A stretch of 35,850 nt of DNA from an uncultured Clostridia bacterium (GTDB taxonomy: Bacteria > Bacillota > Clostridia > Christensenellales > Aristaeellaceae). Position numbers and translations under genes: made by a program. The notes under the pieces are model-generated. The model was given only the letters and a program-made list of their open reading frames with translations, ran no database searches and was not told where the DNA came from. The DNA is taken from positions 1 to 35,850 of the forward strand of contig CAMHSI010000011.1 in the NCBI GenBank assembly GCA_946187775.1. The letters are read 5' to 3'. Positions 1,611 to 6,314 of this stretch are shown piece by piece (the stretch's first letter is position 1; every line of letters begins with the position of its first letter).

Positions 1611-1619
1611 CCTGAAAAC

Positions 1620-1656
1620 ACAAGCCCGGAAGAGAATGCTCTCTTCCGGGCTTGTT
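1620..1656 (-). terminator. Intrinsic terminator downstream of zinc-ribbon gene
   Basis: acaagcccggaagag-aatgct-ctcttccgggcttgt near-perfect hairpin just past the minus-strand stop. Confidence 0.65.
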
Positions 1657-1668
1657 TGCGGCCTCCGA

Positions 1669-1947
1669 TTATCCGCGGCGAGCGGCAAAGCACTCGCTGC
1701 AGTATACGGGACGATCCTCTCTGGGTTCGAAGGGAACCTGAGTGGGCTTTCCGCATTCGGCGCAGATCGCATCATGCATCTCGCGCGGACCGCCGGCTGC
1801 GCGGCTGGCTTTGCGTGCCTGACGGCAAGCCTTGCAGCGGGTGGGCTCGTTCTGGAATCCTTTCTCGGCATAGAATTCCTGTTCACCGGCAGTGAAAACG
1901 AACTCAGCGCCACAGTCCTTGCATACCAGCGTTTTGTCTTCGTACAT
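1669..1947 (-). CDS. Zinc-ribbon domain protein (CxxC-x17-CxxC type)
   Basis: MYEDKTLVCKDCGAEFVF...RCKACRQARK...ICAECGKPTQVPFEPREDRPVYCSEC; two CxxC pairs, the second spaced by 17 residues. Confidence 0.85.
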   Translation of the reverse strand: MYEDKTLVCKDCGAEFVFTAGEQEFYAEKGFQNEPTRCKACRQARKASRAAGGPREMHDAICAECGKPTQVPFEPREDRPVYCSECFAARRG

Positions 1948-1950
1948 GGT

Positions 1951-2190
1951 TAGGCAACCCCCATAATGTTGATAGGCGAATCACTTCGGCTGACCTGGTT
2001 TTTGACCCCACACACGCCGTCCGGACATTTGCTCTGCGCCTTGGCGCCCTCACGCCTGCCTCTCGGGATTGCTCCCGGACGGACTTACATCTAGACCGCA
2101 CCATGCTCCCCGCCGCTTTGGGCGGATTACGTGGACCGTTTTGCCTGCGACTGGCTTCGGCTTGCAACCACAGACCCGAAGAATTCAACC
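1951..2190 (-). ncRNA. Candidate structured ncRNA or long 5' leader, family not identified
   Basis: About 240 nt between a strong promoter and the zinc-ribbon ATG; multiple stem-loops, including 8-bp CCGTCCGG/CCGGACGG (2017-2024 with 2075-2082), CTTCGG/CCGAAG (2155-2160 with 2176-2181), GCGC-CTTG-GCGC (2036-2047), CGAA-TCAC-TTCG (1977-1988) and CCGC/GCGG (2113-2125). Confidence 0.6.
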
Positions 2191-2196
2191 GGCGAC

Positions 2197-2225
2197 ATTA
2201 TAACGAACGCATTTTTAATATACAA
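2197..2225 (-). promoter_or_regulatory. Sigma-A-type promoter for the 1951-2190 RNA and zinc-ribbon gene
   Basis: Minus strand TTGTAT-17 nt-TATAAT (-35 at 2220-2225, -10 at 2197-2202). Confidence 0.75.
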
Positions 2226-3005: not shown

Positions 3006-5789
3006 TTACTCCTCCTCTGTCGTTGTGGTTTCCCCGGCCGACTCCTCCCCTGCAGGGGTTGGATCCTTCTGTTCCGTTTCCTTCTGTTCCGCTTCCTGCG
3101 GCGCGCAGTCCAGGACAATCTGCCCGTCCCGGACAGTCAGCTTCACCGCTTGGCCGAGGCTGATCCGCCCCTGGAGCAGCTCCTCGCTCAGGGTATCCTC
3201 CACCGTGCGCTGAATCAGCCTGCGCAGCGGCCGGGCGCCGAATTTCGGATCATATCCGTCCTCCGCCAGCTTCCGCGTCACCTGTTCATCCCACAGCAGC
3301 CGGATTTCCTGCTCCTCCAGCCGTTCCGCCACCTGCCTGAGCATCATGTCCGTGATCCGGCGGATCTCCTCCTCCGTGAGCGTATGGAAGACGATGATCT
3401 CATCCACCCGGTTGATAAATTCCGGACGGAAGGTTTCCTTCACTTCCTTCATCACGGAGTCCTTCATGGCTTCATAGTCCCGGGCCTCGTCCTTCCGGGC
3501 GGATCCGAAGCCCATGGCCCGTCCGGTTCCCTTCAGGCTGGCGCCCGCGTTGGAAGTCATCACCACGATGGTGTTCTTGAAGCTGACGGTCCTGCCCGTG
3601 TTATCCGTCAGCCGGCCGTCCTCGAGGATCTGCAGCAGGACGTTGAATACGTCCGGATGCGCCTTCTCGATTTCGTCCAGCAGCACCACGCTGTAAGGCT
3701 TCCGCCGCACCGCTTCGGTAAGCTCGCCGCCCTCCTCGTATCCGACGTATCCGGGCGGTGAACCCATCAGGCGGGACACCGTGTGCTTCTCCATGAATTC
3801 GCTCATGTCCAGGCGGATCACGGCGTCTTCATCCCCGAACATCGCTTCACCCAGCGCGCGGCACAGCTCCGTCTTGCCGACGCCCGTGGGTCCCAGGAAG
3901 ATGAAGCTGCCGATGGGCCGTTTCGGATCCTTCAGGCCGGCCCGGGCCCGGCGGATTGCCCTGGATACAGCGCTTACCGCTTCCTCCTGCCCGATCAGCC
4001 GCTGGTGCAGGGTTTCCTCCAGGCGGATCAGCCGCTGGGCTTCCTGCTCCGTCATCCGGCTCACGGGAATTCCCGTCCACTGGGAAACCACCTGGGCGAT
4101 ATCCTCTTCCGTCACCACGTCCCTGGCGGTGGTCTGGGCGCGGCTCCATTCGGCCCGCTTTTCCTCAATTTCCCGGTTCAGGCTCCGCTCCTGGTCCCGC
4201 AGGGCGGCGGCTTTCTCGAAGTCCTGGTGGGAAACGGCTTCCTTCTTTTCAATCTGTATCGCTTCCAGGCGCTTCTCCTGCTCCCGGACGTCCAGGGGCG
4301 CCGTGCAGGCCTGGATGCGCACCCGGCTGGCCGCCTCATCCATCAGGTCAATGGCCTTGTCCGGCAGGAACCTGTCCGGAATATACCGGTCCGAAAGCTT
4401 CACCGCGGCCGACAGGGCCTCATCGGTGATGCGCACTTTGTGATGCGCCTCGTACCGGTCCCGCAGGCCGAAGAGAATGGACAGGGTTTCCTCCGCCGTG
4501 GGCTCGCCCACGTTCACCGGCTGGAACCGGCGCTCCAGGGCCGCGTCCTTCTCAATGTGCTTCCTGTATTCATCCAGGGTGGTGGCGCCGATGCACTGGA
4601 TTTCTCCCCGGCTCAGGGCGGGCTTGAGGATATTGGCAGCATCCAGGCTGCCCTCGGATCCGCCGGCGCCGATGATGGTGTGGATCTCATCGATGAACAG
4701 CAGCACGTTTCCCGCCTTGTGGAGCTCATCCATCACATTCTTCAGCCGCTCTTCAAACTCGCCCCGGTATTTTGTTCCGGCCACCAAGCTGCCCATATCC
4801 AGGCTCAGCACCCGCTTCCCCCGCAGCAGCTCAGGCACGTTGCCCTGCACAATCCGCTGGGCCAGGCCTTCCGCCACGGCGCTTTTGCCGACGCCGGGCT
4901 CGCCGATGAGCACCGGGTTGTTCTTCGTGCGCCGGATCAGGATCTGGATAATCCGCTGGATTTCCTTTTCCCGGCCGATGACCGGGTCCAGCTCGTTCTT
5001 TTCCGCCGCGGCGGTCAGGTCCCGGCTGAATTTGTCCAGCAGGCTCTTGCTCTCCTGGTTGTTACCGCTGGGACGGCTGCGCACCTGGGCAAAAATGCCG
5101 GGAATCGGCCGCATGGGATTCTCGTTTTCCGCGTTCTCCCGCATCTGGCGGAGCAGCTGCTCCCGGGCTGCGGAAAGATCCACCCCGGCCCGGCGCAGCA
5201 GGGCGCCGGCCACGCCGTCGTCATTCCCCAGCAGCGCCAGCCACAGGTGCTCCACCGTGACATAATTCTGCCCCAGCTTCCGGGATTCCATCATGCTGGT
5301 TTCCAGGGTTTTCTTCGCCCGGGGGCTCAGCTCGATGCGGGCGCCGGCGGTGGTTCCCTCCGGCTCGTTCAGGGCGGCGATTTCCTTTTTCAGCTCCTCC
5401 GTCACAGACTCAAAGCTCATCCGGGAAGACACCGCCTCCGGAACGGAAGCGTTGCTTTTCAGCAGGGCCAGCAGGATATGCTCCGTTCCAACATAGGGCT
5501 GCTGCAGCTCCGCGGCAATCCGCTGGGCCAGGGCAAGGGTCTGCTGGGCTTTCTGGGTAAAACGGCCGAAAATGGGCATCGAAAATTCCTTTCTGTTTTC
5601 ATTGCTTTCAGCTGTGGACCGAATGGCGTTGAGAACCGTGTTGATCAGGCTGTTCACGCCGCCCTTCATCAGGTCGGCGTTCATCCGGCTCATGCAGTCC
5701 GCGCACAGGTGCCGGACCGAGGTTTCTTCGCCATTCACCACAGATACGGTAAAGTTTGCTTCGTTGACGTGGCACTCTTCACACAGCAT
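3006..5789 (-). CDS. clpC: ClpC-type AAA+ ATPase with fused N-terminal McsA-like zinc finger
   Basis: N-terminus [32 protein letters not shown] (McsA-like CxxC...CxxC), then [22 protein letters not shown] (ClpC N-domain), two Walker A motifs ([18 protein letters not shown]), UVR segment, acidic C-terminal tail. Confidence 0.93.
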
Positions 5790-5810: not shown

Positions 5811-6281
5811 TTATTTTCCGTTCCGCGCCGCCACGGTCATCAGCATGGATTTCATCATGCGGGCCCGCAGCGCGTCCTTCATGGAATCCGGCACCGGGAT
5901 CCCCAGGGCCCGGCTGCTGAGGGCGGCGGCCATCAGGGAGGCTTCATCCGGGGTAACGATCCGCTGCTCCTTCAGCTGGCTGATGAGCCTTGCGCATTCA
6001 TTTTCCCCCAGGGAATCCCCGATCCGTTCGTTCACCAGGTACATCAGCCGCTGGGATCCGGATTCCACCACCCGCACAATCCGGATGTACCCGCCGCCGC
6101 CTCTCCGGCTTTCCGTCAGGTACCCGTGATCCGGGGAAAACCGGGTCGCCAGCACGTAGTTGATCTGGCTCGGGGCGCAGCCGAAGTATTCCGCAAGTTC
6201 GTTCCGCTTCAGCTCCACCTCCGTGGATTCCTCGTTCAGCATGGTTTTGATAAAGCTTTCGATTGAATCACTTAACCTCAT
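5811..6281 (-). CDS. ctsR: Transcriptional repressor CtsR
   Basis: MRLSDSIESFIKTML...ELAEYFGCAPSQINYVLATRFSPDHGYLTESRRGGGGYIRI; start at 6281 preferred (gaggggg RBS) over the track start at 6302. Confidence 0.93.
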   Translation of the reverse strand: MRLSDSIESFIKTMLNEESTEVELKRNELAEYFGCAPSQINYVLATRFSPDHGYLTESRRGGGGYIRIVRVVESGSQRLMYLVNERIGDSLGENECARLISQLKEQRIVTPDEASLMAAALSSRALGIPVPDSMKDALRARMMKSMLMTVAARNGK

Positions 6282-6314
6282 TTTTTCATGACCCCCTCGC
6301 ATGTCAAAGCGTCA

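Follow-up and report, generated by a model that had tools for sequence, protein, structure and literature searches.

The closest described relatives of the RNA considered here are the raiA RNAs (Rfam family RF03072), known as ModT in C. difficile and as the raiA motif in C. acetobutylicum. ModT is transcribed from a SigA promoter, is very abundant and acts in trans, and DMS data suggest that it has a protein bound to it (PMC11706538). Its deletion in C. difficile was complemented from another locus, and the orthologues give a discrete, abundant and trans-acting transcript of about 210-260 nt (PMC11706538). In the known copies the next gene codes for the raiA/HPF protein or for a PTS antiterminator, and one known gene order is comFC, raiA RNA, raiA(HPF), secA. 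In the stretch of 35,850 nucleotides from an uncultured Clostridia bacterium that was analysed here (the window), the same kind of RNA, with P1, P3/pk-1, P6-P8, the conserved single-stranded blocks and a SigA-type promoter, stands instead before the gene of a small zinc protein, and not of the raiA/HPF protein that gave the RNA its name. In the genus of the window neither comFC nor HPF adjoins the RNA, unlike at the known loci, and of the known gene order only the RNA is retained, together with the zinc gene, with araD on one side and a DEAD-box helicase gene on the other.

Identity and fold of the RNA

The Rfam covariance models, run over the whole window, gave RF03072 (raiA) as the sole match, on the minus strand at 1981-2184, with 169.4 bits (curated cut-off 101.3 bits) and E = 4.8e-43, across the full length of the model. 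This segment is a raiA RNA, the RNA called ModT in C. difficile. A preliminary description made from the sequence had proposed a structured RNA with its own promoter 5' of a zinc-ribbon gene, which is borne out by this match and by a promoter conserved in the genus, and had mentioned a raiA-type RNA as one possibility, which the Rfam search turned into an identification. It had also envisaged a new switching RNA or a 6S-like RNA. The size, the promoter and the stems are indeed similar to those of such RNAs, but raiA is the only match and a strong one, and when 1900-2300 was searched at E up to 1, nothing besides raiA was returned, 6S, SRP, RNase P and tmRNA included; this explanation can be considered practically eliminated. 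By the criterion that the description had itself set, such a strong match to a known family makes the RNA known rather than new, and the raiA RNA of the window is a further member of its family. The features of the locus are the following.

2197-2225, minus strand: sigma-70/SigA-type promoter TTGTAT-17-TATAAT, read directly; found at the same position and with the same spacing in 23 of 23 genus loci
1981-2184, minus strand: raiA (ModT) noncoding RNA, full length (RF03072 positions 1-209)
2166-2184, minus strand: P1 5' strand including the conserved GGUCUGUGGUU block, from the Rfam alignment; its inner pairs form in 180-186 of 186 homologues
2146-2152, minus strand: P3 loop with the first half of pk-1, AGUCGCA, pairing with 2094-2100
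2094-2100, minus strand: pk-loop with the second half of pk-1, UGCGGUC, from the homologue alignment and the cryo-EM description
2078-2082, minus strand: P6 5' strand, pairing with 2017-2021
2064-2077, minus strand: P7 hairpin CGGGA-GCAA-UCCCG, from the Rfam alignment; compatible with P6
2017-2021, minus strand: P6 3' strand, from the homologue alignment
1981-2000, minus strand: P1 3' strand including ACCAGGUCAGCC, from the Rfam alignment
1958-1962, minus strand: Shine-Dalgarno sequence GGGGG of the zinc gene, read directly, 10 nt before the ATG; GGGGG also in genus loci
1669-1947, minus strand: gene of a 92-aa two-module treble-clef zinc protein (zf_Tbcl PF13451 and PF23477/TIGR04272 CxxC-x17-CxxC)
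1614-1655, minus strand: terminator-like 16-bp stem (1655-1640/1635-1620) with the tail GTTTTC, read directly, 3' of the zinc gene

The genome assembly (63.6% complete) holds a single copy of raiA, and one copy per genome was likewise found in the genus wherever the RNA is present, that is in 32 of 37 genomes, the window's own counted. Among sampled genomes the RNA is present in 100 of 347 from the order and in 57 of 291 from the class; in the sample from the phylum it is present in 35 of 300, in part with scores below the cut-off.

The structure was compared over an alignment of 186 distinct homologues. P1 is formed with the conserved strands GGUCUGUGG and ACCAGGUCAG. The 7-bp stem 2152-2146/2100-2094, which is assigned to pk-1 from the published cryo-EM structure, has six of its seven pairs standard here, and in 185-186 of the 186 homologues, with changes on both sides at 2150-2096, 2149-2097 and 2146-2100. 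P6 is paired in 185-186 of the 186 and also shows changes on both sides, for example GC/AT/TA at 2080-2019. These comparative pairs support P6 and pk-1 of the predicted raiA fold. Counts of the P7 and P8 hairpins taken from the plain alignment were low, seemingly because of variable loop lengths; P7 was therefore rechecked sequence by sequence, and a hairpin of at least four pairs starts at the exact site in 147 of the 186 homologues, while the P8 counts are those of the plain alignment. The RNA thus has the P6 stem with P7/P8 that characterises variant 2 of raiA. Minimum free energy was dropped as evidence of a structured RNA (z = +0.53 against shuffled sequences), and by folding energy alone the raiA RNA would have gone undetected.

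An 8-bp long-range stem, 2075-2082/2017-2024, had been described as mutually exclusive with the hairpin at 2064-2077, as in a switching RNA. The stem exists in the sequence and its outer five pairs are the conserved P6, but the other three are not conserved: this extension is contiguous in only 14 of the 186 homologues. Judging from the alignment, the three conflicting pairs are a chance extension in the window's sequence. As P6 and P7 both belong to the raiA consensus and to one fold, nothing points to the proposed switch, and the switching RNA was rejected on the rarity of the three clashing pairs.

Promoter, linker and zinc gene

The promoter (-35 TTGTAT at 2225-2220, a 17-nt spacer and -10 TATAAT at 2202-2197, minus strand) lies exactly where the preliminary description had placed it, and transcription would start near 2190. 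A TATAAT-like box no more than 25 nt from the RNA start was found in all 23 scored genus loci, with at most 3 mismatches over the 12 hexamer positions, where shuffled sequence mostly gives 4-6. The raiA RNA has, in other words, its own SigA-type promoter, whose conservation supports independent transcription of the RNA. Direct reading confirmed that the approximately 240 nt before the ATG at 1947 hold no credible ORF. It had also been stated that no U-tract terminator precedes the ATG, and the consensus scan of the minus strand agrees, finding no recognisable terminator between the raiA RNA and the zinc gene; a terminator at this place was rejected, and its absence distinguishes the locus from the best-studied raiA copies. 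The stem at 1614-1655, past the gene, was not listed by the same scan, probably because its T run is short. Promoter, RNA, zinc gene and terminator look like one transcription unit.

The zinc protein has both modules and all eight cysteines of the zf_Tbcl/CxxC-x17-CxxC proteins (PF13451, PF23477, TIGR04272), and at least 118 of the 119 RNA-linked homologues have retained these cysteines. Its relatives in the PDB are limited to a weak LIM-domain similarity. In one genus member (L023, at about 1740-1960), the zinc gene that follows the RNA is split over two frames, which suggests a frameshift or an assembly error.

The RNA and the zinc gene across Clostridia

Within the order, the zinc gene lies on the same strand and 3' of the RNA in 67 of the 100 raiA-bearing genomes and in 10 of 13 taxonomic families (given here under anonymous labels), the families without this linkage being f17, f21 and f31; the distance from the end of the raiA model to the start of the zinc domain is 34-56 nt. 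Both members are zinc-linked in 1575 of the 3888 between-family locus pairs of the order. Any upstream gene within 1.3 kb is common to 51 of 1471 such linked pairs (3.5%), and any gene within 1.3 kb past the zinc gene to 19 of 1489 (1.3%); the 79 linked loci have 29 groups of upstream neighbours and 41 of downstream neighbours. As so few flanking genes are shared between families, the RNA and the zinc gene stay together, without a recognisable terminator in between, while their flanks change. Outside the order the linkage was seen in families f52 (11 of 11) and f73 (6 of 6), also in f68 and f81; of the 29 newly fetched loci from the phylum-level sample, 18 show it as well. Conversely, of the zinc protein's 80 closest relatives in named GTDB genomes, 38 are encoded directly downstream of a raiA RNA. 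The RNA and the zinc gene are a median of 33 nt apart; all 138 of the 138 gaps contain a Shine-Dalgarno-like sequence, and the linkers vary in sequence from family to family. With HPF as the next gene, the gap is longer, 161 nt at the median, and T runs are frequent in it.

In several families of the same order (L002, L029 and L180) the arrangement is comFC, raiA RNA, zinc gene, HPF, secA, which links the zinc arrangement to the known comFC/raiA neighbourhood. HPF, FliS, FlgN and the ComFC phosphoribosyltransferase domain were confirmed with Pfam. In the literature searched we found no mention of zinc with the raiA motif and no report of the zinc-gene pairing, the main gene-neighbourhood study (PNAS 2024) lying outside this coverage, so that an earlier notice is possible. 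In f31, a family of the same order (L218-L226 and L033-L055), the raiA RNA has no linked zinc gene; HPF lies just 3' in most of these loci, and secA is upstream and divergent in several.

Each partner also occurs without the other. Among the 347 genomes of the order, 89 have both, 11 the RNA only, 56 the protein only and 191 neither (raw counts, relatedness ignored). No PF13451 match was found in 13 of the 29 raiA-bearing genomes from unlinked families, some near-complete raiA-bearing genomes lack the zinc protein, and the protein without the RNA is also seen in Oscillospirales-type loci. An obligate RNA-protein partnership was rejected on these absences (13 of 29 unlinked genomes, and 11 of 100 in the order).

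Some relatives of the zinc gene that lack a raiA RNA (L096, L098, L100, L102, L106, L110, L115, L119, L129, L130, L134 and L135) have in front of them a tRNA-like element that spans some 70 nt, at about 2390-2475; most belong to hosts with Oscillospirales-type names. The element has the pattern GCCC..GTAGCTTA..AGAGCGTTG..CAAAGGTGTCGGT..AATCCGTC..GGGC. ARAGORN called 0 tRNAs among those scanned, and the Rfam tRNA model matches three, weakly; the consensus fold has stems like those of the acceptor, D and T arms, with no compensatory changes.

Reduced raiA RNAs of 110-121 nt occur in families f143 and f195 (L276, L277, L278, L280-L284, L287, L288 and L291-L299), scoring 42-59 bits where scored, against the cut-off of 101.3. 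They retain P1, the P3 hairpin and, in most cases, a pk-1 partner (GCCGC/GCGGC or GCCG/CGGC), most of P4-P8 being gone, and every distinct one has a zinc gene 32-41 nt 3' of it. A model built from eight of them matches 19 of the 22 genomes of the small order to which they belong. These short versions suggest which parts of the raiA RNA are dispensable.

Mode of action and the place of the zinc protein

We consider it highly probable (about 0.9) that the whole locus is explained by a raiA/ModT RNA that is transcribed from the promoter at 2197-2225, is likely to act in trans and is probably followed by read-through into the zinc gene. A housekeeping-type promoter would start the transcript near 2190, and the transcript would fold into the compact raiA structure, with P1, P3 and pk-1, P4/P5 and P6-P8. 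Transcription would most likely continue through the short linker into the zinc gene and stop at the stem just past it, giving a single RNA-plus-mRNA unit from which a discrete RNA may be released. This abundant and stable RNA would most likely act in trans on the transition between growth phases, like its counterparts in C. difficile and C. acetobutylicum, trans action of raiA RNA being known only from other species.

The same arrangement might be read as a cis-regulatory leader, in which the raiA RNA senses a ligand or a state and controls the zinc gene as a riboswitch does. Rfam labels RF03072 as 'Cis-reg; riboswitch', the RNA makes up the entire 5' leader of the zinc gene at a tightly kept distance, and refolding of ModT in vivo has been reported. 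A riboswitch would however be expected to carry an expression platform, either a terminator switch or a masked ribosome site, and none was found at this locus, where the scan shows no terminator before the gene and homologues do not keep the alternative stem that had been proposed. Control in cis is less likely than action in trans, because there is no such platform, because the linkers vary between families and because elsewhere the same RNA precedes HPF or other genes; moreover, deletions of orthologues are complemented in trans (PMC11706538). Such a leader is, in our judgement, improbable. Far more weight should be given to the idea that the zinc gene does no more than use the strong raiA promoter, the RNA being functionally unlinked to it, to which we would grant a little under an even chance. 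This is a narrower reading of the same transcription unit and leaves the identity of the RNA unchanged. The protein is dispensable for the presence of raiA and vice versa, each being found alone, and the two may have stayed adjacent because of common expression requirements instead of a physical partnership. Yet the pair survives in many families whose other neighbouring genes have all changed, including those with an RNA shortened to 110-121 nt; one would expect a gene without a link to the RNA to be separated from it more often.

Beyond the raiA RNA with read-through into the zinc gene, one might speculate that the RNA and the protein serve one process. In much of Clostridia, the raiA RNA and the CxxC-x17-CxxC protein could work as a single functional unit in which the protein is a conditional partner, binding the RNA or acting with it, and the two would be maintained as one operon of RNA and gene despite repeated genome rearrangement, even with the reduced RNAs. 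We regard this as tentative and rather doubtful. If it were true, the raiA RNA would gain a candidate protein partner; as a neighbour retained in many families, while comFC, HPF and all others change, the zinc protein is a concrete one to test. The literature offers, as an analogy only, the OLE RNA with OapA, a large structured RNA with a small protein; neither has any sequence relation to the raiA RNA or the zinc protein, and the partner here is a candidate.

Elsewhere on the minus strand of the window (3006-5789), an ORF of 927 aa joins, with no intervening stop, a McsA-like N-terminal part rich in cysteine to a ClpC-like AAA+ protein, an apparent McsA-ClpC fusion, and adjoins a CtsR-like gene (5811-6302).
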